Shown: one piece after another, positions 193 to 29,056 of the stretch
How positions within the stretch are numbered: position 1 is the first letter of the stretch
How the letters are laid out: every line of letters starts with the position of its first letter
Assembly (NCBI GenBank): GCA_009602725.1
Contig: WELB01000232.1
Location: 1 to 29,102, forward strand
Length of the DNA stretch: 29,102 bases
Source: Spirogloea muscicola
Lineage: Eukaryota; Streptophyta; Zygnematophyceae; Spirogloeales; Spirogloeaceae
Direction of reading: 5' to 3'
Notes under the pieces: model-generated
Told to the model about the DNA's origin: nothing
Database searches by the model: none
What the model saw: the letters and a program-made list of their open reading frames with translations, nothing else
Made by a program: the position numbers and the translations under genes

Positions 193-354
193 CATGAACC
201 AAAAAGGGAAAGATCGAGGTTTACGTGGGGCTTAAGGTAACCGGGGGGGGCCTGTAGGTGGGGCCCTTGTGTTGGCGGGAAACGGTTGTTTGTCGATGGG
301 GTGTGATGGGAGACATGTAGAGGAAGACGCTTCCAGGAGAGGCCGGTGGCTGGG

Positions 355-665
355 AGAGGCCGGCCTAGAAAAAGAAAGAAGTGGCACTCCCAATGGGGGC
401 AAGGGCTGCGAAAAGCCAGCCCAAAAAGAATTCACAAAGGTTCAGAGGGGCCTAAGAGCGGTGAGCAGCTACAAAGGGGCCTGAGGATGCAAAAGAAGAA
501 AGATAGGGAGGCTCGCCCATAGAGAAAGAGGGGCTGGCAAAGCCAGCCCAAAAAGAATGGACAATGTCCAAAGCCGAAGAATGAGATGCCGAGGAAGGAC
601 TCCTCTACGCTACCAATCACGACAACATACTAGGGAAGCTCAGTACCCGCGAGTGAGCAACATCA
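355..665 (-). repeat. Two joined retroelement 3' ends (type A)
   Basis: Read on the minus strand, this holds two copies of the type A 3' UTR. Each has a GGGCTGG-type hairpin: 531-549 is a perfect 8-bp stem with an AAA loop, and 403-422 is an imperfect stem. Each hairpin is preceded by 'TCCATTCTTTTT' or a close variant. The upstream end, at about 640-665, matches the coding end of the retroelement (the 'SDLMLLTRGY' stretch). No full gene is present. Confidence 0.65.
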
Positions 666-905
666 GGTCCGAGTAGCTCAAGAAAGAGCTCGCCCATTGA
701 GGATAGGGGCTGGAACAGCCAGCCCAAAAAAGAATGAGCAGAGTACAAGAAGCCCAAGAAGAAGGGGGCCAGGCGAAGCACTGAGGCGAAGCACTAAGAA
801 AGAAGCACACAAGAAGAAACGAAGCAGCTACTGATTACTCAGTAACCCCTGCTAAGCAGTCGCAGGTCAGAGAGGCTATGTTCCTGGAAGGACGTCCCCT
901 AGAAA
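666..905 (-). repeat. Retroelement 3' end (type A)
   Basis: A minus-strand type A 3' end. Near 832-880 it encodes the conserved terminal peptide ending 'LLSRGY' plus a stop, followed by a C/T-rich 3' UTR with the hairpin at 707-725 and 'CCTCAATGGGCGAGC'. The 5' part is missing. A small direct repeat, 'GCGAAGCACT', occurs twice at about 773-802. Confidence 0.65.
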
Positions 906-989
906 AAGGATTAACCAAATCCGACGGAAAGGCTTACTGAATGTCTCGTAGCTACTTGAGACATGTAGGTGCTCACGTATGATGGGAAA

Positions 990-1271
990 GAAGAAGTGGC
1001 ACTCCCAATGGGGGCAAGGGCTGCGAAAAGCCAGCCCAAAAAGAATTGACAAAGGTGTGGAGGGGCCAACAAGCGATTAGCAGCTACAAAGGGGCCGGAA
1101 GGTGCTATGGCAGAACAGGGGGAGGAAGGATCACTCAGTAGGTACGAGTGAGTAGCCTCAGATCCGACAGACTAGCTGCCGGGAACTATCCCCCTGACAA
1201 AAGCCGGAGGCCGCAGCGAGAGCACGGCCAGCACGCAGATGCAGAGCGTGGGCCATGGACCGCTGGAGGGA
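990..1271 (-). repeat. Retroelement 3' end, left arm of inverted repeat 1
   Basis: A 5'-truncated copy on the minus strand. It encodes the C-terminal 'LQR...HA...AGRALAAASG' segment and the 'SDLRLLTRTY' end with its stop, then the 3' UTR with the hairpin at 1018-1037. By eye it matches the opposite-strand copy at 1533-1814 almost base for base. Confidence 0.8.
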
Positions 1272-2600: not shown

Positions 2601-2623
2601 AGGCCCAGACGTGTGCCTGGGCA

Positions 2624-3226
2624 GCACTGCTTTCAAAAGCAAAGCAGTAAAGGCCTTGGAACGTGTGTAAGCATGTGCTCTGCCCCAGTCCTTACACCAC
2701 TATGTGTATGCGTTCAGACATGTACTAGAGCGGCAATGGCTAGCCCTTGACTGCTAGCTTTTGCCCAACTTTTGCTCGGACCAAACCTGGAAACAGCAGC
2801 TTTGCAGAGTGGCTCTCGGTTGCTGTGCCTAAAATTGGCCAATGTCACAGTTTGTGTGGAAAGGATTCCTACAGGATCTCCTATAGGAGGATATGGCTGC
2901 CACCGAATTCCTTCATAGGCTCGTCGTTATATAATTTTCTGAGCCGATAAGCCTCCATCTCCTCCACTGTGACCTGCAACCACCAGCAAGAATAGTCCCC
3001 AGCTCACCCTCATTCCCACGACATGTGAAAAAGACCACATCCACAACTCCCTTGTTACGGCTTAATATACTTGGACTGGACTGCAAGATGAACAAAGTGA
3101 TGCACTCTTACACCCGGTTCACAATCCCTCAAATTATTATGTGCTTGAAAACTCGTGAGAACACACAAAGACATTCCAACTGGCAGCAGGTGCTTCACTA
3201 CATACCTCATTATTGTAAGTCACATA
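2624..3226 (-). repeat. Segmental duplicate of SLU7 3' end (copy A)
   Basis: Bases 2624-3226 align along their length with 4372-5002, clearly related but diverged with small indels. The block contains the end of SLU7 exon 10 (3226-3206, encoding YVTYNNE), the exon 10 donor (GTATGT), the whole of intron 10, a terminal exon and the 3' flank. The duplication breaks inside exon 10. Next to the break lies a plus-strand retroelement 3' end (3300-3500). Both copies keep a TGTAA on the minus strand (2692-2696 here), a candidate green-algal poly(A) signal. Confidence 0.85.
2881..2973 (-). pseudogene. Duplicated SLU7 terminal exon (possible alternative last exon)
   Basis: This is a second copy of the last SLU7 exon, 93 nt including a TAG stop, exactly the length of the exon at 4750-4658. 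It is preceded by an intact acceptor (TTGCAG). It encodes [20 protein letters not shown] followed by KEFGGSHILL. The first half matches the family's conserved VT.EEMEAYR...DPMK ending; the last ten residues differ from the other copy. The open frame and splice site would allow use as an alternative last exon by skipping the nearer one. It may equally be a slowly decaying relic. Confidence 0.7.
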
Positions 3227-3500: not shown

Positions 3501-3639
3501 CATCGTTGCCTTGCATTGTTAAGAGCTGTTCCTCCTTTGAAGGCTAGAGACGCGCCGGGGCCCTCGCGGGACCCCACGCCGCCAATCGTTTAGGGCTGGC
3601 CTCTTTTGACCATCTTCTCTGACATCTCTCTGAAAAAGA

Positions 3640-3705
3640 CATTTGTAAGGCTAGAATTGGCCTTCCTTTCAATTTCATGCGCACCGCGCGCCTTTCTCTG
3701 AAGAG
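3640..3705 (+). repeat. Retroelement 3'-tail fragment (type B)
   Basis: It contains 'GGCTAGAATTGGCCT', 'TTTCAATTTCATGCGCACC' and 'GCGCGCCTTTCTCT', matching the tails at 28569-28620 and 13590-13640 (minus strand there). Confidence 0.7.
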
Positions 3706-4371
3706 CTTTCTGTTTTACTGTTTCTGCAGGACTTTCTCCTCTCTTGAGAGACAGTAACATCATGTAGCAAAAGGGCTTAGCACTGTGCTTCTGTACATTT
3801 TCCTCTCGTCTGCGACATCACTGCAATTACTACCCTTCTACGGCTTGTGATGAACATGATCAGATTGTACACCATCAAACTTCTTGACGGATATAAGAAA
3901 GACTAATGTTGGGCAAGAGCTGCATTGTCAGGAAAGGACAGAGTTGTTCTTGGATATAAGTTTTGCTGTGATATCATTCTCGCCCTCGTCTGTCACGAGA
4001 GGAACATGGTCGAAGCGTTGCGAAAGAGTTGAGGTGCAGTACCAATCCTAGTAATCTGACTCTTGTGGACTGACTACTTTGCGTACCCAGACTGCATGGA
4101 AACAAGTGCGAATGATTCCTTGGTCGCCACTCTCAAGAATGACTTAGATCAACGCAGCAGACTTTCGTGCTCCAAGTTGCCATATCTCAGCAGCAGATAA
4201 TAATATTGAGCATGCATGTATGTGCAGCAAAACGTCAAGACATGTTCAAAGTGACAGCACACTGTTCAGCACCGGATCATGAGCAGGTGCACTTATCAAC
4301 GGGCCATGCTACCCTACGTTACACTTGCTGCAATTGCATGCACTGCTACATGTATGTCGGTCGACTATGCG
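3706..4371. other. Intergenic, no recognised gene
   Basis: Sequence between the two SLU7 3' duplicates. No coding exons, RNA genes or repeat family members were recognised. It is downstream of SLU7, so part may belong to a long 3' UTR. Confidence 0.4.
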
Positions 4372-5002
4372 GCACTGCATTCAAATGCAAGACAGTGGAG
4401 GCCTTGGAACGTGTTAAGCATGTGCTCTGCCCCAGTGCTTACACCACCACGTGAATGCTACCAGACTTGAAATAGAATGGCAATGGCTGGCCCTTGACTA
4501 GGACTAGAGCGGTGACTAGAGCGGTAACGGCTAGCCCTTGACTAATAGGGTCTGCCCACCTTTGCTTGACCGACTCTGGAAACAGCAGCTGTGCAGAGTG
4601 GCTCTGCAAGTGCTGTGCCTAGAATGGGCCACTGTCAAGTATGTGTGGAAGGGACTCCTAGACGACATTATTGCTGTCAAGGTATCCCTTCATGGGATCG
4701 TCGAAATGTGATTTTTTGAGCCGATACGCCTCCATCTCCTCTGCTGTGACCTGCAACCACCAGCAAGAATAGACCCCAGCTCACCCTCGTACCACAACAT
4801 GTGAAATAGACCACATCTACAACTCCCGTGTTGTACGGCTTGAATAAACTTGGTTGACTGCAAGGTGAACAAGGTGATGCACTCTTACACCTGGTGAACA
4901 ATCCCTCAAATCAGAAATGGCTTGAAAGCTTGTGAGAACACACAAAGACATTCCAACTGGCAGCAGGTGCTTCACTGCATACCTCATCACTGGAAATCAC
5001 AT
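4372..5002 (-). repeat. Segmental duplicate of SLU7 3' end (copy B, in the gene)
   Basis: The in-gene partner of 2624-3226. It covers the end of exon 10, intron 10, the terminal exon (4750-4658) and 3' flank. A local tandem duplication of 'GACTAGAGCGGT' lies near 4502-4525 and is absent from copy A. TGTAA on the minus strand at 4439-4443 is conserved in both copies. Confidence 0.85.
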
Positions 5003-8000
5003 TGTATTTTCGCTTTCTCTCATCCGTCTCCTCATTGGACCTCACTTCTTCCTGCACAACGTGAGGCCCATAGTCAGCAGGCCTCTTCAAAGCAACATGC
5101 TCATTCCCCTTAGCGGTCCGTACCAGACCCACCCACCCATTACTGAAGTTGCTGTGTACTACATATGCTGAAGCCAGGAGTGAGAGTGATCACGGAATTG
5201 GCTTATCACAAAGTCAAGCACTTCAGAAAATTGCAGATAAGGGAGAACAGGAAAAGACATAGTAGCCAACAATCTAGTAATGCAAAAGCATCATACATGA
5301 CTTGCTCCCTCATACTGACCTTCTTGAGGGCCTCCTTCAGCTTCTTCTTGTCAAGCACCAAATCGTCGGGAGTATCAGTCCCCCAGCTGGCAGGATTTTT
5401 TTCTTCGTTCACAGATTTTGCTTCTGATGACATTTGAAAAGGCCCAAGTCCTGTAGTTGGACATGTTCCTGTGCGCATGTGCCTCGCAAGCGCATGATAT
5501 CCTGACACGTGTGTAACATCAACGCTTCACGGCGATGCACAGATTGTACTCATATCCATCAATCAGAATGGACAACTTCTGAAGGCAATTGCGGGATGGC
5601 TCTTATTGTTGGAATTCGGTATCACAGTGCATCTTGCATCTCAAGAGGCAGACCACCAGTTGCTGCCAGATGAAGACGGGAGACCTCACGAGCGCAGTGG
5701 CTGGACTTAGGCAAGATGCAATCATCAGAGAAGACATGTGAGCATACAGTGCTTACCTCCAATAGCCTCCTTGCGCTCAATGTTGGAGCGCAGGAGGTCC
5801 GGAGATGCTTCAGCAGCATCAATGCCAGCGTGGCCTGTACAGTAGCCAAGGTGGGCAACCCCTCGGCAGCATCGAAAGCCCCACTGGCCGTCCTTCCACC
5901 ATGACCCCCACACTGTGGTGTGATTATTGATATATACATCCTCCTCATATTTGCTCCTTGCCACAGCCTTGTCCTGCCATCCGAAGGCCAGAGAATTCAT
6001 GGTTGCTCAATCAACAGCTCCTTGTCAACGGTCACAGCAACAAGTTCCCCTTATTTCCATGTAGCTTTTGACAAGTAGGGGGCGTCATATCTGCATGTAA
6101 GCCCAATCACCTGCACCTGTGCCTGCAACTGTGTGTTCAATGACATACAGCGTGGTAACGACAACAATGAAAGAAAGAGAGGAAAGCATCATGCACCTGC
6201 CCCTTGACAACTCGACCGGCACGATCGTACTCCACGATACTTTCCGTCTGACCCAGGAGAAGTTCGCCTGGCAACTTCTCGGTGGACGAAGCACTCCCAT
6301 AACACTCCCTAATGCTGTCCTTGACTTTCTTTTTCAACGACTCTTCCTTGAGTTTGAAGTTGCGGTGCAGGAGCTCCGCCTGCCAATGAATTTTGTATTT
6401 CAGCTCAGTGCTTACAGAGAGTGTAAAATTGTCACCAGGGAGTGACCGGAGAGAAACTCATCATCACTTCAAGACCTAAACAACCTCTTAAAGCCAACAA
6501 ACACTATTGACAGCTTCAAGACCTGGCACATCACCTTTGACTCTTGGGCTTGCTTCACACAGCAATGTGAACACTTCAAGCAAGAGCCCACCTGTGAGGG
6601 AGCTGCCTGCAGGTGTACATCTTGCCCCTTCTCAAAGGCTTCCCAAGCGTGGACGTTAAGCTGCCGGTGCTCGCTGGCTTGTCCATTCAGCCTATTCTGA
6701 TTGTCACCCTGTAAACATATGGAACGAACCTCAAAATAGAAGCTCCGAGCAGAAAGGTATAGGTCACTGGCTGGTCTAAAAGCTACGTCAGTGTTTAGGT
6801 AGACACAGTAGGCACTTCAGCCGTTGGCTGAATTACTTGATCGATCGTGATCTGGCAAGGAGCAGCTAAAATAGGCCTGATCCCATCTTGCCTTTTGAAG
6901 TACAAGCATCATGAGGTGAGGAGCTGTGCATACCATGTAGAAACGGTCATTGGCATCGCTGCCAGGATTATGATCCTCCCGCATTGACCGAGTTTTGGGG
7001 TCGTAGTAAGCTGAATTGATATCCAGATTGAGGAGATACTTGGCGGTGTCCTCGCGAATACGCAGGTTCCTAGAAGCACACGGTTGTGCAGCTGTATGTG
7101 AGAATTGAGCATCTTGCAGACATCTTGTGCACGTGACTTAGGAATCTGTGCGATTGCAGACGTCTTTACCATATTATCCTTGCAGAGAACGTGCAACAGC
7201 CCTACAGACAAGACCTTGTCCTCGTCATCAAGCAGCAAATCTCCTTGCCTTGACTGAAGCCAGCCCAAAAAGAATGGACAATATCCCCAGCCAAAGAGAG
7301 GAGCCGAAAAAGAACTACACTACAGTCCATGCCTGTGGACTAGGACGAAGACATCAGCCAGAGGACGCTCAGTAACCTCTAGTCAGGAGATGCAAGTCGG
7401 AGTAGTCCTTTAAGATGTATCAAACAGGCTCACCTCACAGTTCCTGTGCTTCCGCCACCTGTAGTACGTACACGCTTCTCTACCTTAGCAAAATCCATCT
7501 GCTCGCTCTCATCCACCTTTGCCTCATCCTCACCAATCATCTCCCCCAGTCCTTCATCTTCGCCTTCCTCGCCTTCCGTTGCTGCACTCTGCAAGTCAGA
7601 AGGTGCAACTTGTGTAATGGTTATCAGAGCTGGACAGCTTTAGCAGCTGGAAAATTGTGTGACGTGTCATCAAGTAGGTAGAACATGGACGACTTTCAGG
7701 CGGCTTAAGCAAAGCCTGTTGCAAGTCTCGAACATGCCAATCAACAGTAACACATCACCCATACTACTTATACACAGCCATCCAAATACACAGCAATATC
7801 TGTATCTTCAGCAATAACAATCTGATCCAGGTCCTTAGATAGGCAAGCACGCTTGCACGTGCATGCTTGACAGAAGCAAGTGAAGATAAGGTACTTGGAG
7901 ACACGAGCCAGATTGCAGAGCTGTCCACAAGTACACTACCAGTCTCGTATAGCGAGAAATACCTTCTCAGTGAGCTTCTTCAGCTGCTGTTCCTTTTTAT

Positions 8001-8765
8001 ACTTCTGCCGGGCCTCATCACGCACTTCATACGAGTCAATGACTCTGGAATATGCTGCTGCGTCGTACCCATTCCATCTATCTCTCTTTCCCTCAAAGTT
8101 GAGCTCGAATTGCTCAAGCTTGTCATCAGGAGCAATGTGCTTATTTGTGTGCTTCGCAGCCAACTTCCTTGGCCTCTCCATGCAACCCTTCACATCATGT
8201 GTCATGGGGCCGCAGCTGGTATGGCCAAGAAGGACAGAAGTATGGTGTCATGAGAACACATGTTTCTGAGAGAAACACAGAAACACAGAAAAACGCATCA
8301 TGTGATCCTGCATGGCACCTTGCTATGAGACCTCATGATATATACATTGTCAATATATAGCATGACGAGGCTACGAGAAGGAACTCTCAAGAGAGTTTTT
8401 TTTTTGCTGCCCTGCAGTAGGACCAAGAAGATCCTCACTTCTCACAGGCGCCCTTCCGGTACTTGTTGGCCTGGAAAGTCTTGGCGCCTCGGTCGTACCA
8501 TTTTTTGGTGTAATTGGGGTCTTGCTTCCAGTTCGTCTGATGCTTCAGACTCTATTGCACAAAGGATGGGAGTCAACAATTGCTGAAACGATTACGAAAG
8601 CTTGATATACTACTGAAAACATCATGTCTGGCAGTGATCCTTCGCGACCTAGCAACTCAAGCTCTGGCATGGTGGACTCACTGGTCGCTCGGCGTTGAGG
8701 TACCAGGGTGCCGAGGACACGTACTGTGGGATATGCGGGTTGATCTCTTTTCCATCTTCGTCGAG
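4658..8765 (-). CDS. SLU7: Pre-mRNA-splicing factor SLU7 (5' end unresolved)
   Basis: SLU7 acts in the nucleus at the second step of splicing, in 3' splice-site choice. Coding exons: 8765-8682, 8551-8439, 8215-7963, 7588-7434, 7069-6934, 6708-6592, 6379-6197, 5973-5757, 5423-5320, 5051-4983, 4750-4658. They join in phase to 507 residues plus a TAG stop; all introns are GT-AG. Visible family blocks in order: [37 protein letters not shown]; the CCHC zinc knuckle [121 protein letters not shown]. It resembles the plant form closely. The family's usual N-terminal stretch (about 20-25 residues before LDEDGKE) was not found, so an upstream exon joined to the AG at 8767-8766 is likely. The same frame is open to an ATG at 9119, but that stretch is low-complexity. 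Intron 4 carries a retroelement fragment. Confidence 0.95.
7250..7410 (-). repeat. Retroelement 3' end inside SLU7 intron 4
   Basis: It contains 'GCCAGCCCAAAAAGAATGG' (7257-7277) and, near 7370-7408, the 'CTCAGTAACCTCTAGTCAGG' stretch that matches the element's RGY-stop region. It is in the same orientation as SLU7 and ends only about 25 bases from the exon 4 donor at 7433. Confidence 0.65.
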
Positions 8766-9499: not shown

Positions 9500-9620
9500 T
9501 GATGTCTTCTCAGCGCTTTCCGGCCCCGCTTGACCTTGTCAACTCTTCTAGGTCTGGCTGCTCACAGCCCTCGCCCCCTTTGGGCGAGCCACTTTCTCCC
9601 TTCATTTTGATGTTCTTCTT
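9500..9620 (+). repeat. Retroelement 3' end (type A) with two hairpins
   Basis: A plus-strand 3' UTR fragment with hairpin 1 at 9551-9570 and, directly after it, hairpin 2 at 9570-9588 (CTCGCCC, CCTTT loop, GGGCGAG; perfect 7-bp stem). It is preceded by 'TTGACCTTGTCAACTCTTC', the usual lead-in. This is the clearest copy of the second hairpin in the window. Confidence 0.65.
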
Positions 9621-12640: not shown

Positions 12641-12779
12641 TGATACCGAGGAAGCGGCGCAGCGAAACGATGAGGCAGGTGGGCTAATAGTTAAAGCTGA
12701 CGGCGCAGTCAGAGACAGTGACCCGTATCTGGATACAGGGACCGTCGTGAGGCAGGGGTTATCGTGCAGTTGAGACCTT

Positions 12780-13445
12780 GCACAAGACGGAATGAATCAC
12801 TCCTCCAAATTGACTGGTGGCTGTGAGAGGCCAGCCCGAACAAGAGAACAAGAAGAAAGTGCTCGCCCATTGAGGATAGGGGCTGGAAAAGCCAGCCCAA
12901 AAAAGAATGAACAATGAACAAAGTACGAGAAGGGGGCCAGGGGAAGCGCTAAGGAAAACAAGCACAAAAAGAAACAAAGCAGCTACAAATCACTCAGTAA
13001 CCCCTGCTAAGCAGCCGCAGATCAGAGATGCTAGGCTCCTGGAAGTGGGTCCCCTGGCCAGAGCCAGAGGCAGCAGCGAGGGCTCTGCCGGCACGAAGGT
13101 GCAGCGCGCGGGCCATAGACCTCTGCAGCGAGACGGCCAGGCGCATACGGTATACGTGCGCCAGCGACCCGGCTGCAGGAAAGTCTACCGGGATCCCCAT
13201 GGAAGCGACGGGCGATGGCGTGGCGGGCGAGCTCGGTGAGCAGCTCGAGCCACCGAGCGCCCACCGCCCCATGGGTGTCAATTGCCAACGGGAAGAACTC
13301 GTCTTCCTGCGGATGGTCGGCGTACTTGAGCTCTTTTGCCCGAGCGGCGCAGGCGCTATCGTTCCGGCCAGAGAACAGCGCTTCCAAGTTGACTGGTGGC
13401 TGTGAGAGGCCAGCCCAAAGAGAAGAAGAAGGAATGGACAAGGTT
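12780..13445 (-). pseudogene. Retroelement 3' fragment: endonuclease region, C-terminus and type A 3' UTR
   Basis: The minus strand encodes AKELKYADHPQEDEFFPLAI and 'DTHGAVGARWLELLTELA', then in another frame RMRLAVSLQRSMARALHLRA, 'GRALAAASG' and 'SISDLRLLSRGY' with a TGA at 12996-12994. The 3' UTR follows with the hairpin at 12880-12898, 'CCTCAATGGGCGAGC' and a second hairpin unit ending near 12790. A further short hairpin unit abuts the 5' side (13380-13440). Confidence 0.8.
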
Positions 13446-13484
13446 CGAAGATTACGGAGGTAGAATAGCTAGCAAGCGGATAGC

Positions 13485-13560
13485 GAACAGCGCTTCCGAA
13501 TTGACTGGTGACTGGGAGAGGCCAGCCCAAAAGAATGGACAAAGTCAAGAGGATAGACGT
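13485..13560 (-). repeat. Short hairpin unit (about 70 bp)
   Basis: On the minus strand: 'TTGACTTTGTCCATTC', 'TTTTGGGCTGGCCTC', 'CAGTCACCAGTCAATT' and 'CGGAAGCGCTGTTC'. The same unit occurs at 13380-13440, 12790-12845 and 16728-16785 (minus) and at 16200-16269 (plus). It stands without coding sequence, in tandem with the 13380-13440 unit. Confidence 0.65.
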
Positions 13561-13589
13561 CGCCCTGCCGAGAACGGGAGGCTGAGAGA

Positions 13590-14240
13590 AGGCGCGCGGT
13601 GCGAATGAAATCGAAAGGGAGGCCAATTCTAGCCTTACACATGTCCTGTTAGCTGGGAAATGAGCTGGCTAAGGGGGACATAATATCCCCGAGTGAGCAC
13701 ATGCATATCTGACAAGCTATGCTGAGTAGCCAAACCACCTTCACGGAAGCCATTAGCCTGGGCTAATGCACGCCCAGCACGTTGGTGTATCGCGAGTGCC
13801 TGGGAGCGCTGTAGACTCAATGATAGCCGCAATCTACAGCATGCAAGATGGCTTGCGGGACGCTGGAATGCCGTAAGCTACCCGCCCGGCTACGTCGGCG
13901 GACATCGACATGCAGAGCCAGGCAATGAAGGAGGGAAGACCACTTCGTTCCGTAGCCGCCGTATATGTCCATGGCGCATGGGAAAAGTGGTCGTCCCGGG
14001 GGTGGTCATTATAGTGCCTCTCCTTCTTCCTCTCCGCACGATGTGTCGCCCAACCTGGCACAGTCGGTGTGGGTGCCCCTGGTTGGAATGCGTCGATGAG
14101 AACGACGTCGAGGAGAAGACGAGGCCCACCACTCCGGGGGGGTGGCAACCACATCCAGACGCCTGACGTGGAAGCTGCAGCCAAGGCGTGGCCTGTACGC
14201 AAGTGGACAGCGAAGGTCTCGCCATCAAGTCCTAAACGCC
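13590..14240 (-). pseudogene. Retroelement 3' fragment with type B tail
   Basis: The minus strand encodes 'LLLDVVLIDAFQPG' (endonuclease motif region), HYNDHPRDDHF, then in another frame '[19 protein letters not shown]', 'GRALAQANG' and [12 protein letters not shown]. The tail, 'CTAGAATTGGCCTCCC' to 'CGCGCGCCTTCTCTC', ends at about 13590. Its last roughly 278 bases are close to identical to the copy in FN3K intron 1 (28569-28846). Confidence 0.8.
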
Positions 14241-14369
14241 CCGTGTACGTCGACGGCGAGCGGGACGATTTCGTCCCCCACTGAGTGACCGGCGTATTTG
14301 CGTTCCTTGACACCCGCCGCTTGGCGGACTGCGTTGCCCGCCTCCTCCGACGAGCGACGACGGATTGGG

Positions 14370-14512
14370 GTTGGACCTTGTCCATGTCCTGGGCTGGCTC
14401 TTCGCAGCCCTCGGCCCCAAGGGCCCCTTTCTTGCGAGGGGCCAGGGGACCTGCTACCAAGAGCCCAGTTCCTCCGACCTGCGGTTGCTTAGCAGGGGTT
14501 ACTAAGTGTTTC
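14370..14512 (+). repeat. Retroelement 3' UTR and C-terminal scrap
   Basis: On the plus strand, the hairpin at 14391-14410 with its 'CCTTGTCCATGTCCT' lead-in is followed by a second, separate end that encodes SDLRLLSRGY plus TAA (14475-14508). The order (UTR before coding end) shows two joined fragments. Confidence 0.65.
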
Positions 14513-15734
14513 TTGCGCATAGAGGCATGTCGAGCGATGCTCTTAACAGGTAGGTGATAGCAACTTCATGTCAAGTTGAATGAGTCTAGCATTGGTGCTG
14601 GAGCTCTAGCTCCTTGTGCATAAGGAACAAATGGTCAGGCACAACAACAGGAACGGCCACCATAATGCACACCTTGAGGGGCTCAAGAGTGGCCGCAGCG
14701 GGCAGGATCAATGCAATATCAGAGAGAGCCTGCCATGACCACTGGTATTGGTTAGAAAATGCATAACACAAGTGCATGGAGCTCTTTAATGAAAACACAA
14801 CGATTGGCAATGCCATTCTGCCTAGTCACTGTGCAGGAGATGGCACACAAGTTGCTGCGCAAGTGTGCTGTCCTTGGGAAATGTTGAAGCAAGATATAAG
14901 CAGCTAGATGTGGGTGATGGTTTGCAGGGTCCTTGCTCGCAGTTTGTTGGCGACGCCGGCTTGTTCGATTGACTTAGTGCAGGGTGACGCAGGCAGGGCC
15001 ACTCTGAAGCTCTTGGCTGGGCTGCTGCACCATATATTGGCCTCGAATTGATGAGGGCATTGCACCCCGTGCTTATAAGAATGACAATTTGTTGATACAG
15101 GCGTCTGCGACACAAAATAATAGGAATGCTATCAGGCATGGCACTCTGTAGCTCAGCTCACCCTTTACCAACCCTTGAAGTAACGCGTCGTGCATTTGTT
15201 TGCTGGGATGCTCAAAGCTTACACAAAGCAAGAAAATACCAAGTCTCTAGGAAGGGTGCTCAACGAACTGAGAGGTGTGCATGCCTCAGCGCCTGCTCTG
15301 GAGCCATACCATACTCGACCTCTCAGTCAAGCACACGCTGTGAAGCTCCCAGGCTTTGGCTTCTGCCAACACGCAGCGGTCATAGCTGGGCGCAGCAGCA
15401 GGTGTTTCCAAGATTTCCTGCATGGGCTTCAATAGGATGACTAGAAGGGATTGCGGCCCCTGGCCTTCTGGATTTGGCCAACCACCTTGAAGATTAGGGG
15501 TTGCATGAGGCTCCCTCACAATTTACCGTGTCCTTGAGGAGAAGGCCGATGAGGGCGAGGGCGTAAAGAAGGAACTGTGCCTCAGATAGTTGCGCTTATG
15601 ATTGCTTTCTCTTGTCAAGCACCACACTGTCAGCTGTATGAAATCTCCAGCTCGCTAAGCCCAATTCAACAGTCACACAACGATAAGAGATATTGCATGA
15701 GCAATACCACACGAAACGACACACCTGACGGGGA
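14513..15734. other. Intergenic, no recognised gene
   Basis: Only short open frames on both strands, none with a recognisable domain or a convincing exon chain. No repeat family members were seen except at the right edge. Confidence 0.4.
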
Positions 15735-15780
15735 CTCTAGTACCCACGAGTGAGCACATATATCTCTACCAGACTTTCTT
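15735..15780 (-). repeat. Retroelement C-terminal scrap
   Basis: The minus strand encodes 'YVLTRGY' followed by TAG (about 15757-15737), the conserved end of the retroelement protein. Confidence 0.5.
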
Positions 15781-15894
15781 GGAGCGCCTTACTTGTACAT
15801 GTTTGTAGCACACGGCTAAGATTGTTCCCTGGAGCTTATTTTGGTGATTCCGCACCTTTCTTGCGCTACAATAGAGAAGCTTTTTTCTGTCTAG

Positions 15895-16330
15895 ACCTTG
15901 TACACTACTTTGGGCTGGCCTCTCACATCCGGGATGACACGACTTCGCTCCACTGGTCATCGATGTGCACGGGCTTACGGGTCTCAGTGGCTGGAACTTT
16001 TGACCAGGCTTCCGCGCCACGCTATGTCCCGCAGGCGGGGCGAGGAGGCTAATTTCGCGCTGCCGACTCGTTAGCGCGGGTGTTTCGTATTCCCCTAAGG
16101 ATTTCCCTCCAGCGGCCCTTGGCACATGCCTTGCGCATGGGAGCTCGCCGTGCTCTAGCTGCCGCCGCTGGCTAACGTTAAGGGAACTGCTTTCCGGCGT
16201 TGACCTTGGTACATTCTTTTGGGCTGGCCTCTTACAGCCACCTGTCAATTAGGAAGCGCTATTCTTCTTTTTCCGGCGGCTAGTCTTTCTGACTTGCGGC
16301 TGCTTCCAAAGGTTACTAAGTGACCTTCCT
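15895..16330 (+). pseudogene. Retroelement C-terminal fragment split by a nested insertion
   Basis: On the plus strand, a hairpin unit at 15911-15930 is followed by coding sequence for ISLQRPLAHALRMGARRALA (from 16101) and, after a 70-bp interruption at 16200-16269, 'FPAASLSDLRLL' (from about 16270) ending near 16318. Removing the insert restores the order of blocks seen in other copies. Confidence 0.75.
16200..16269 (+). mobile_element. Nested 70-bp hairpin unit with 9-bp target-site duplication
   Basis: The insert is flanked by TTTCCGGCG at 16191-16199 and again at 16270-16278. Inside are 'TTGACCTTGGTACATTC', the GGGCTGGCCTCTTACAGCC hairpin (16221-16239), 'GTCAATTAGGAAGCGC' and a T-rich end. 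It has no coding capacity. It resembles the 3' end of type A elements, so it is probably an extremely 5'-truncated or SINE-like copy. Confidence 0.75.
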
Positions 16331-16369
16331 TCGTGGTGCTTGCTTAGTTGTGTGTTTCACGCTTTTCGG

Positions 16370-16520
16370 CCCCTTTGGATCTTGTCCATGCTTTGCAGGC
16401 TGGCCTGTTAAAGCCCTCTGGATGAGCTTACTTCTCACAACCATTACCTTACACTGGAGCTGTTTTTGCTATCTTCTCTTCCTTTCTGTCCGCATGGGTT
16501 GTCGCCCAGCCAGGCACAGT
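16370..16520 (+). repeat. Retroelement 3' UTR fragment (type A)
   Basis: A plus-strand UTR block: 'TTTCGGCCCCTTTGGATC', then a degraded hairpin 'GGCTGGCCTGTTAAAGCCC' at about 16398-16416. Confidence 0.5.
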
Positions 16521-16639
16521 CAGAGTGGATGCCCTCGGAAGAAGCAGCTCTAAAAAAAGGAACAGCTCTTCAACTTACGGCAATGTGAGATGCCAGTCCA
16601 AAGCAATGTACAAGGAAGAGAGACAATTCCAGTAAACGC

Positions 16640-17045
16640 TGTCATTGGCCAGCCTAGGAAAAAATATACAAATGTCGAAGGGCCAGAAAGAGAGTGCCAC
16701 AGAAAGGGCCAGAAAGCGTTTAAAAACAGCTCTTCCAAGTTGACAGCAGTTGGCTGTAAGAGGCCAGCCCAAAGAAAGCTCTAAAGCACACAGCCAAAAG
16801 AGGCGAGGAAATGCTTTGAACCCTTAATCCTGAACCTAAATATTCTGAAAAAGTAAACAAGGCCCAAAAGAAGAAACTCGCCCAATTTAAGAAGGTGGCT
16901 GGGAATGGCCAGCCCAAAGAGAATGGACAAGGTCCAAAGTGCCGAAAGGTGCCTAAGCCACACAGCTATGCACAAGACTACAGCGAAGGCGAGCTTACTA
17001 TAAACCCGGGTTAGCAGCAGCAAGTCGGAGTAACTTGCAGCTGGA
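16640..17045 (-). repeat. Cluster of retroelement 3' ends
   Basis: Minus-strand fragments: a hairpin-unit scrap near 16645-16680, a full short unit at 16728-16785, and a longer end at 16860-17045. The longer one encodes YSDLLLLTRVY (about 17035-17000) followed by the UTR with 'GGCTGGGAATGGCCAGCCC' near 16896-16914. Confidence 0.65.
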
Positions 17046-17989
17046 AACGAGACACCTTGACGTGATGTGCACTACCAGGCGCACTTTAAGATTCAAGTGT
17101 AGATTGCAGTGAAGCAGGCAGTTAGTCAGAAGCGTCCTAGGCACAGAGCTACCAACTCATTTGCCCTGCATCAGCATGACAGTGCTGCTCAAGGATATAA
17201 GCCATGCAAGCAGCTGAATGTAGAGCTTGCTAATCGCGAGCTCGGAGCCAGAGCTCAGACAGACTACCACAGCTTGCGCCTGTCCATGCAGTCTACCTTT
17301 GTTGAGTATGCAAACTGTTGGCACATGCATTCCTCTGACGTGAACAACACGAGCCATATCACAGCAGCAATCTCTTTACCACTCTCTGCTCTAGCAACTC
17401 ATGCTCCTCCATCAATGATGCAATGAACCCCTGTTGTTTGATGTGTACACAATGCGTACTGGAGCAAGCAATGCAGGAGACTGTCAGAGCCTTTTTGTAA
17501 ATCCATGCATCACTGCCGAGGATGGAAACGGCAGAGAATCCCACTCTGCACAGACCCTACCGTAAATATACCGTCCTATATTTCTACGGCATTGCCTGCC
17601 ACCATATTTACCCGACTGTTCTAGAGGAGAAGTTGAGACCCACCGCGCAGCTTAGCTGCAGGAGTTTATGTTGTTCCGGACTTGAGGAGAATGCTGGCAG
17701 TGGTGCTCAGATCTGGTGGCTAGTCAGACTTGCTGTGATTGCCAACAATAGCCCCCTGGGGTTGTCTGAGATACTGTACGAAGATGGGGGCATCACTGTC
17801 GGCCGCACTCACCACCTGCATGCACAGGGCTCAAAGACTTGCTGAGCAGATAGTGGAGGACATGGCGAGCTGCATTAAGCAGAGATAAAGCAGGTACTGT
17901 AGCCCATACAGATGGTTGACAATTGGTACTGTGGCCGGTCGAGCTGATTTGGTGGCCTCCGCCACCTATTACAAGGCCTAGCAGCTCAC
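17046..17989. other. Intergenic, downstream of the SelD fusion gene
   Basis: No gene or repeat family member recognised. TGTAA on the minus strand at 17973-17969, 17 bases past the SelD stop, is a possible green-algal poly(A) signal. It is close to the stop, so this is uncertain. Confidence 0.4.
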
Positions 17990-26479: not shown

Positions 26480-29056
26480 TCAAGTAAATTTCTGGATGAT
26501 AGACATGCATGATGAGCGGTAACCAGAGCCAAAGAGGTTGTAATGATTCAGATAGTGGTATAGCTTGTAGAGCTCCGCTCGCTGCTCAAAGCCAGGCTGC
26601 TTAGGTAGCACCTGCAGTATTCGTGGCCGAATTTAATATCAAAGCAACCCGGCTGACAAGGCACAGCACTGTGTATATGTCATGGCCCTCGCGTTCTGCA
26701 CAAGAGCTGCTGCATTAAAGATAATCGCAGGCATTTCTTATCCTTCGCAAAGTGACATGCGCATGACTAATTTACATGTTGCAAGGATGTTGCAAGGATG
26801 TCACAAGTACTACTTAAGCAGCAACAATCAGGACAATGACAACAACTAGATAAGCAATTCTCACCGCAAAATAAGCGCTGTAGAAAGCAGGGCCAAAGCC
26901 AGCACACCAAGACATTCCAAATTCAGCTTCGCTGTGCCCATCTGATCAAAGGAAAAGGAGCTCTATCATTCAGATCATGGAGGAATCCCGAAAATTGCTA
27001 CTCATTATTATCAGCAAGCATGGATGGTATCTACTGATGCAAGCCCATAGTGCAGCATAAGAAAGTCCAAATAGGCCCACGCCGGACACAACTCACAGTA
27101 TGTAGCTGGGTCCAATATGACATATTTCCCCTGCTTGTCAGCAGTGATGTTGCCACTCCAAAGATCGCCATGGAGGAGGGCTGGCTTTACCTCTACATCT
27201 CCCAGTAGTTCCGGCAACTTCCCCAGGAGCCTTTGACCTGTTGAGAAAAGCAAACAGAGTGGCCGCATCCACACCGTACGAAGTTAGTAGATACAGGAAA
27301 ATCGTCCTTCGGAAGTACAATGAGGAGCCCAGCATCAATGAGCTGTTGACTGCCTTTAACATGTACACAAGCTCTAGAGCTTGTGTAAAAGAATGCCAGA
27401 TTATGCCCTGTTGCCCATGATAGAGATGTCACAAGCACCAACACAACTTCAAGCCATTATGCCAGCTTGCGCAATTATCAAGTGCGATAGATCACCGAGC
27501 TGGAAGATCTCGTTGTCCTGATACTGCTGCTGTGCAAGCTGGAGTTGGTAACCCAGACGGTGGTCTTTGAAGAAGGTCGTCCAGTCCTTGGTCCAGGGGT
27601 TCGGCTGGGGCGTGCTTCACATTTGCCAGCCAGACAACCATCCTCAACATCGTCAGCACATCAAAGCATGCTTTAAGGTACTCGACATGCCTGCAAAGCG
27701 GGGGGACACTAGCTCCTGGTTAGCTTTCACCTGCCAATTGTGTTGTCAAGGTCGAAACCAAAACCCCTGGTGCTTGTCGAGTTGCTGTGCATCTCTGCTA
27801 ACTGCCTACCCAGAACTGCCTGTCAACCAAGGTAGAAGAGCATAACGCTGTCACTTCTACTTTAGCACAACAGCATCTGGAGCTCCCGTAGACTACTCAA
27901 CAATGGGAGTCAACGACAGGACGTTTCTTGGAGAGATGCAGGCTGCCCACTTGTGCAAAGAACATGCATTCCACGATGTCATGCTTCATGCTACTTACAG
28001 GTCATTCTTCTTGAAGGAGGCAAGGGGAGGTGTATGGCCCAAGTCTGCTATGTGCCATTGCAGGAGATTGCAGAATATGGCACTCACTTGTCCCCCTTGG
28101 GGTGAGCCGAGCTCGATATACTCCATGATGATGAACGAGCCCCTCCCAGGCAGGGACCCGACCTGTTTCAGGCCTGCCAAGGGTTGAGCTTCAGCTTAAG
28201 AAGAGCTGGCACAGCAAAGCTGGTCTGGCCAGCAATGCTGCTTTCCTAGCCAATCACGTAACACCCCCATCCTCGGAGAGTTGCAGCATAACTCTTTCGT
28301 TTGGGCAATGTGACTGACGTGTACGGCAATGGCAGATGAAGCGCAATGTACGTTAGATTGGTGCTGCGTCGGCCCACCTTGAAAGGCTTGGGGATGCGCA
28401 GCGTGTGCGTCTCCCACATGGCCTGCAGGCCTCGGGCCTCCGCCTCGAACATGGACGGGCCGATGCTCCTGGCCAGCCCACAAGACACCGCCACATTCAG
28501 CAGCCCGGCGCCGCGCTCGAGCTGAGAGCTAGAGCCCCGCTAGCGTCAGCTAGATGGAAGCAAGAGAGAAGGCGCGCGGTGCGCATGAAATTGAAAGGGA
28601 GGCCAATTCTAGCCTTACAAATGTCCTGTTAACTGGGTAATGAGCTGGCTAAGGGGGACGCTAATATCCCCGAGTAAGCACATGCATATCTGACAAGCTA
28701 TACTGAGGAGCCGAACCACCTCCACGGAAGCCATTAGCCTGGGCTAATGCACGACCAGCACGCTGGTGAATCGCGAGTGCTTGGGAGCGCTGCAGACTCA
28801 ATGATAGCCTCATCCTATAACATGCAACGATGGCATGCGGGACGAAGGCAAAGGGAAACGTCAAGTGCCGTTTCCGACGTTGGGGATTGGAAGCGGCGGC
28901 GGGGGCAGACCTGTTGGTCTTGACGAAGAAGGGGCCGGCGTCGGTGTCGTAGCGGTGCGCCGTATTGATGCAGCCGCCGGAGACCGGCGACACGCGCGCG
29001 ACGGCCGAGGCGCCGCCCTCGGACGTGATCCAGGCCGTGACGGGGTCCGTCTCCAT
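26480..29056 (-). CDS. FN3K: Fructosamine-3-kinase / ketosamine-3-kinase
   Basis: Phosphorylates the sugar moiety of glycated proteins, which destabilises the adduct and lets it fall off (protein deglycation). Exons: 29056-28911, 28468-28378, 28162-28088, 27819-27731, 27614-27496, 27237-27097, 26941-26865, 26611-26480. They join in phase to 289 residues plus TGA. Visible: P-loop SGGCINTA with Cys29 at the position of the redox-sensing Cys known in plant and human family members; FFVK with Lys46; MFEAEARGL (55-63); [30 protein letters not shown] catalytic loop (196-203); ILDPATYYGH (from 214); [26 protein letters not shown] near the C-terminus. Length fits the family, with a slightly short tail (SIIQKFT). 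The reading frame stays open upstream through the window edge in Ala/Arg-rich sequence, so an N-terminal transit extension outside the window cannot be excluded. Intron 1 holds a retroelement end. The exon 5 acceptor (GTGAAG) lacks a pyrimidine tract. Confidence 0.95.
28569..28846 (-). repeat. Retroelement 3' end (type B) inside FN3K intron 1
   Basis: About 278 bases that match 13590-13867 with few differences. On the minus strand it encodes '[19 protein letters not shown]', 'GRALAQANG' and '[12 protein letters not shown]' with a stop at 28663-28661, then the type B tail. It lies in the same orientation as FN3K between donor 28910 and acceptor 28469. High similarity to the other copy suggests a fairly recent insertion. 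Confidence 0.85.

Follow-up and report, generated by a model that had tools for sequence, protein, structure and literature searches.

In the 29,102-base stretch of DNA analysed here (the window), the 70 bp at 16200-16269 of the forward strand probably represent a non-LTR (LINE-type) retroelement copied with extreme 5' truncation and inserted within an older copy. In the window as a whole a history of nested LINE-type insertions can still be read, with inserts that go down to 60-70 bp: copies have a common 3' end and varying 5' ends, eight inserts are accompanied by direct repeats of 7-11 bp (putative target-site duplications), and some insertions lie within others. As it stands, 5' truncation explains the short unit, and the preliminary description, which had offered both a 'SINE-like' and an 'extremely 5'-truncated' reading, is on balance right in its truncation part; the insert would then be an ordinary product of known biology.

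Copies that carry the hairpin are built in one orientation, with C-terminal coding sequence that closes with variants of SDLRLLTRGY-stop, then a 3'UTR containing GGCCCCTTTGGACCTTGTCCATTC, the hairpin itself and a pyrimidine-rich tail (e.g., CTTTCTTCTT); how much of each part is kept varies from copy to copy. A hairpin model built from 17 seeds gave 33 matches in the window at E<=1, seeds included, of which 30 anchor positions were carried forward, i.e., some 30 hairpin matches within 29 kb. The C-terminus of these copies is one that we take to resemble other LINE C-termini. Pfam detected neither a reverse transcriptase nor an endonuclease in the 58 stretches searched out of 111 stop-to-stop stretches of at least 85 aa, and the copies recognised are 3' fragments; the assignment to LINEs therefore rests on anatomy. 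An AlphaFold prediction for the C-terminal fragment (pLDDT 42) was too low in confidence to use, and a profile search of solved structures returned one chance-level match. Exact hairpin patterns had no matches in viral contigs or in genome contigs, protein searches of viral contigs gave no confirmed relatives (316 stretches fitted a pattern, none of them confirmed, and another search found none), an 88-bp query had no match among plasmids, and a word-based literature search found no description of the family.

Among the first ten stretches put to Pfam, a SLU7 exon was found above cut-off at 7939-8247, which marks the window as eukaryotic and perhaps, at a guess, green-algal, with fructosamine kinase and AIRS_C below cut-off; weak matches to EpmC (E 0.073) and Pro_CA (E 0.21) were taken as chance, as were one-member matches to SEEK1, NYAP_N, YqjK and Troponin-I_N (E 0.0014 to 0.024) in the 48 further stretches, from repeat-rich parts. 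One hairpin copy (7256-7405) lies amid SLU7 coding stretches, and a copy of a second 3'-end family, here called F2, lies directly after a fructosamine-kinase-like first exon (28564-28844; Pfam match below cut-off); both copies thus adjoin gene pieces, and they probably sit in introns. The window also holds a direct repeat, 2621-3225 against 4369-5002 (~650 columns, 77% identity), which shows no obvious connection with that family of hairpin copies.

The 70-bp insert consists of a partial 3'UTR, the hairpin GGGCTG..CAGCC and a pyrimidine tail, and over its full length it aligns with the terminal ~70 nt of those longer copies in which 3'UTR and C-terminal coding sequence are also present; this alignment, along with the wide spread of insert lengths, supports the 'extremely 5'-truncated' reading. 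As had been claimed, the 9-mer TTTCCGGCG stands at both ends of the insert (16191-16199 and 16270-16278, forward strand), and these are its only two copies in all 29,102 bases, the other strand having none. The further claim that removal of the insert reunites the host copy was likewise borne out: with 16200-16269 and one 9-mer taken away, homology is restored across the site, at best as 83 ungapped nt with 74.7% identity to 1571-1653, and the joined flanks also align with 1237-1123 (71% over 118 columns, seven gaps) and 13103-12990 (68% over 114 columns, one gap). Direct 9-mer repeats occur at 405 of 19,538,780 position pairs 21-700 nt apart in the window, and at this rate ~0.006 would be expected near the insert's ends (17x17 position grid). 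When the 30 hairpin copies were compared with shuffled upstream flanks, this copy reached p ~0.01 when 80 nt of upstream flank were used and 0.07 when 600 nt were; the 80-nt scan also gave p<=0.05 at 3591, 13419 and 16918, where in each case one or both sides of the repeat fall inside repeat-element sequence.

The host is itself an insert, a 5'-truncated LINE-type copy of 505 bp (15928-16432, forward strand) with C-terminal coding sequence, 3'UTR and a hairpin at ~16394, set into the hairpin of an older unit whose 5' part lies at 15890-15927 on the same strand and whose 3' part lies at ~16440-16462. Its putative duplication is TCTCACA (15921-15927 and 16433-16439), and joining its flanks rebuilds a hairpin unit that scores 33.0 bits, versus 21.5 and 3.5 for the separate halves.

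In all, eight inserts (60, 62, 70, 276, 505, 519, 523 and 637 bp, some with nested copies) end in 3' tails, with repeats that are exact in seven of them and match at 10/11 positions in the other. The 637-bp case (321-957, reverse strand) is a hairpin unit of ~103 bp once the 523-bp insert inside it and one of that insert's repeats are subtracted, and its putative duplication is CTACATGTCTC (11/11; 958-968 and 310-320); the 523-bp insert (375-897, reverse strand) has CTTTTTCTAGG (11/11; 898-908 and 364-374), and joining its flanks raises the score to 14.5 bits from 11.0 for the right half alone, a small gain. Within 375-897, three LINE 3' ends follow one another head to tail, each beginning in or beside the pyrimidine tail of the preceding copy, as if old tails had been targeted by new copies. 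The 276-bp 5'-truncated copy (992-1267, reverse strand) is flanked by the putative duplication TCTTTCCC (1268-1275 and 984-991); it and 1533-1814 are inverted copies with 96% identity over 283 columns and nearly equal 5' truncation points, and a putative duplication was found for just one of the pair.

Further along, a LINE-type copy of 519 bp (12851-13369, reverse strand) has either TGTTCTCT (13370-13377 and 12843-12850) as its putative duplication or, alternatively, the repeat CTTCTTsTTCTCTT, and the unit score stays almost the same when its flanks are joined (48.2 vs 47.5 bits). A second isolated unit, 62 bp long (13484-13545, reverse strand), is the one with the imperfect repeat, CTATCCTCTTG at 13546-13556 and CTATCCGCTTG at 13473-13483. 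The 60-bp insert (3635-3694, forward strand; putative duplication TCTCTGAA, 3627-3634 and 3695-3702) belongs to F2 and has a different 3' end. Other members of F2 lie at 132-184, 13584-13862 and 28564-28844, the last (reverse strand) being a longer copy with C-terminal coding sequence and the F2 3' end, of which 13584-13862 is a second copy; a hairpin particular to F2, AAGGCUAGAAUUGGCCUU, is predicted in 3635-3694, about as far from the end as that of the first family.

These repeats do not all carry the same weight. Per boundary grid, 0.035 exact repeats would be expected at 7 bp, 0.013 at 8 bp, 0.006 at 9 bp and 0.003 at 11 bp; the 7-8 bp repeats (at the 505-, 276-, 519- and 60-bp inserts) are therefore only suggestive, and weak taken singly, the repeats of all inserts having been picked by search, with support strongest for the 70-, 523- and 637-bp inserts. 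The 600-nt scan gave p 0.00 for the copies bearing the repeats of the 523- and 637-bp inserts and the alternative repeat of the 519-bp insert, 0.25 for the 62-bp unit (~0.06 with an 80-nt flank) and 0.28 for the 276-bp copy.

Synthesising these observations, we suggest a model for how the 70-bp insert might have arisen, whose enzyme, nick, priming event and premature stop are all inferred. The RNA of the element would end in the hairpin and a U/C-rich tail; within the older copy's C-terminal region, an endonuclease would nick the target strand opposite TTTCCGGCG, such that an A/G-rich primer end could anneal to the U/C-rich RNA tail; target-primed reverse transcription would then copy ~70 nt and stop, and second-strand joining would bridge the staggered cut and so duplicate 9 bp. 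In 8/8 inserts the repeat starts with a pyrimidine, a count to be read with the caveat that the pyrimidine tail itself biases where the repeat is placed; repeats of this kind would suit the annealing step proposed here.

We count several observations towards the truncated-copy reading, namely the ungapped fit of the empty site to its paralogue, the rebuilding of a unit by the flanks of the 505-bp host, and the presence of a 60-bp copy in F2 as well, a separate 3'-end family. Counted against it are the lack of a recognised reverse transcriptase or endonuclease in the 58 stretches searched, the likeness of the left 9-mer to the element's 3'UTR, the shortness of the 7-8 bp repeats, the small or absent gain from joining the flanks of the 523- and 519-bp inserts, the missing duplication signal of the isolated units as a group, and the finding that the 70-bp and 62-bp inserts have 5' ends no more than ~3 nt apart, which random truncation does not predict, and which therefore leaves room for a discrete short family.

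Such a family, SINE-like but without a small-RNA head, would be a non-autonomous one of ~65-70 nt, its short RNA mobilised in trans via the shared 3' hairpin and tail. Besides the nearly common starting point of the two inserts, a GTCAA-type 3' segment shared by 5/30 copies (12840, 13419, 13531, 16218 and 16773), and not seen in the longer copies listed, speaks for it; however, in two of these five (16218 and 16773) the upstream sequence is somewhat like the longer 3'UTR (p 0.00 and 0.04, respectively, from 300 base shuffles), the ~103-bp hairpin copy starts elsewhere and reaches further upstream, and the unit holds no segment that is absent from LINE copies. Nor was a small-RNA head found: ARAGORN returned no tRNA gene in the window, and Rfam gave nothing at the gathering threshold in the window, with one chance-level match (E 3.2) in 12700-17100.

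The isolated units bear on the same question. The preliminary description had placed the unit, standing alone, at four further sites, and it is indeed present at all four, on the opposite strand: BLAST matches of 90-100% identity lie at 13489-13537, 13372-13419, 12808-12837 and 16751-16773, and score 59.7, 56.7, 47.6 and 55.0 bits against the hairpin model, all four being among its 17 seeds. 'Standing alone' is wrong for the unit at 12790-12845, which adjoins the tail of the 519-bp insert and is separated by that insertion from the unit at 13380-13440. No duplication of their own was detected for the reverse-strand units delimited at 13369-13439 and 12789-12840, and that of the unit at 16721-16806 (reverse strand) was not above chance. 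The idea that every isolated unit carries a duplication was not borne out: across 13 isolated or partial units, matched flanks had a score of 6.73, and 156 mismatched pairs one of 6.20 (permutation p 0.16, or 0.44 once the two best, the 70-bp and 62-bp inserts, are left out), a group signal not significantly above the mismatched controls, which tells in part against the account originally given of these units. Apart from the 70-bp, 62-bp and ~103-bp copies, the units lack defined ends.

The 'SINE-like' label is thus unsupported, the unit having neither a small-RNA head nor a segment of its own, and its isolated forms no group-wide duplications; the SINE-like reading is less likely than a 5'-truncated LINE-type copy, and we regard the independent ~65-70 nt family as unlikely. 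Its more specific form, a head-less retroposon family moved in trans solely by the LINE 3' hairpin and pyrimidine tail, and preferring the pyrimidine tails and hairpins of its relatives as insertion sites, we hold to be slightly less likely again.

A different reading concerns the left-hand repeat, TTTCCGGC, which might be the element's own 3'UTR, the junction then being 8-9 nt of microhomology (through a template switch or recombination between copies) and not a target-site duplication. The left 9-mer does resemble GCTTTCCGGC, a sequence that the 3'UTR at 9515 has in the corresponding position and that recurs with a single mismatch at 16361 and 16708, and the upstream-only match to the 3'UTR gave p 0.00 in 300 base shuffles; part of the left repeat could thus come from the element, whose own 3'UTR contains GCTTTCCGGC. 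That said, the ninth base (G) agrees with the target but differs from the 3'UTR, the paralogue aligns with the joined site without gaps, and the CCCC that intervenes in the 3'UTR is missing from the unit, such that we consider microhomology improbable as the origin of the junction.

A short DNA transposon (a MITE or introner-like element) would account for a short, repeated sequence with a 9-bp direct repeat on both sides, but it appears very improbable, as no terminal inverted repeats can be seen (TTGACC.. at one end is not complementary to ..CTTCTT at the other), the repeats are anywhere from 7 to 11 bp long, and the unit lines up with the 3' end of longer coding copies. That the 9-mer is a chance repeat within a decayed repeat cluster is scarcely credible: 27 of 1,450,425 position pairs spaced 60-110 nt apart in the window do share a 9-mer, and 30 copies were scanned, but this repeat falls at the very limits of the unit, where the expectation is the ~0.006 given above, and the empty site restores homology.

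Returning to the truncated LINE-type copy, the hairpin had also been put forward as marking the RT recognition structure, on the ground that the insert is about the minimal sequence that can be copied. This does not follow, because a 5'-truncated copy marks the point at which cDNA synthesis came to a halt and says nothing of what the enzyme has to bind; moreover, the 60-bp F2 insert has a different 3' end, and no covariation was seen in the stem. RNAalifold on 13 copies gave five pairs, 0/5 with a compensatory change; for a specified inner-plus-outer stem, 0/17 pairs covaried in 13 copies, with 75.6% of cells paired versus 76.2% after shuffling, a test with little power for the inner pairs because the inner stem is nearly invariant. 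Pairing between the 5' and 3' arms gave p 0.03 in 20 copies and 0.025 in 16 non-redundant copies, both values being uncorrected and with flanks included. Of ten stretches folded one at a time, two fell below z -2 (at -3.4 and -2.2); the 70-bp unit was unremarkable (z -0.8). We accordingly claim the structure no further than as a short, nearly invariant hairpin.

The window illustrates how little of a LINE-type element a copy can retain, and it locates the 3' end of the hairpin family. Were the independent family to prove real, it would offer a very small natural substrate for testing the RNA needs of a LINE enzyme and, if truly head-less, would be among the shortest retroposons.

The stringent-type LINEs UnaL2, ZfL2-1 and ZfL2-2 likewise have a stem-loop close to the 3' end of their RNA, where, in the part of the source concerned with them, it is needed according to retrotransposition and binding assays (PMC4176376); for the present family the likeness would be an analogy from sequence, for a stem in which no covariation was seen. 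In Chlamydomonas, the RandI/Dualen LINEs are partnered by SINEX elements, described in the relevant section of PMC3747384 as short elements with a LINE 3' end and non-poly(A) 3' repeats, including (CTTT)n in SINEX-2_CR. Compared by description only, and as far as that section goes, the short unit is like them in sharing a LINE 3' end and a non-poly(A) tail, and unlike them in having no separate head. The Zepp LINE of Chlorella/Coccomyxa, in the passages that treat it, inserts in nested fashion into existing copies and is frequently 5'-truncated, leaving mostly 3' ends (PMC8226300, PMC3446292; Higashiyama 1997 as cited there), and ends in poly(A) (PMC3747384). Unlike Zepp, again by description only and within the compass of those passages, the family in the window has a pyrimidine-rich tail with a hairpin; like Zepp as portrayed there, its copies are nested and 5'-truncated.
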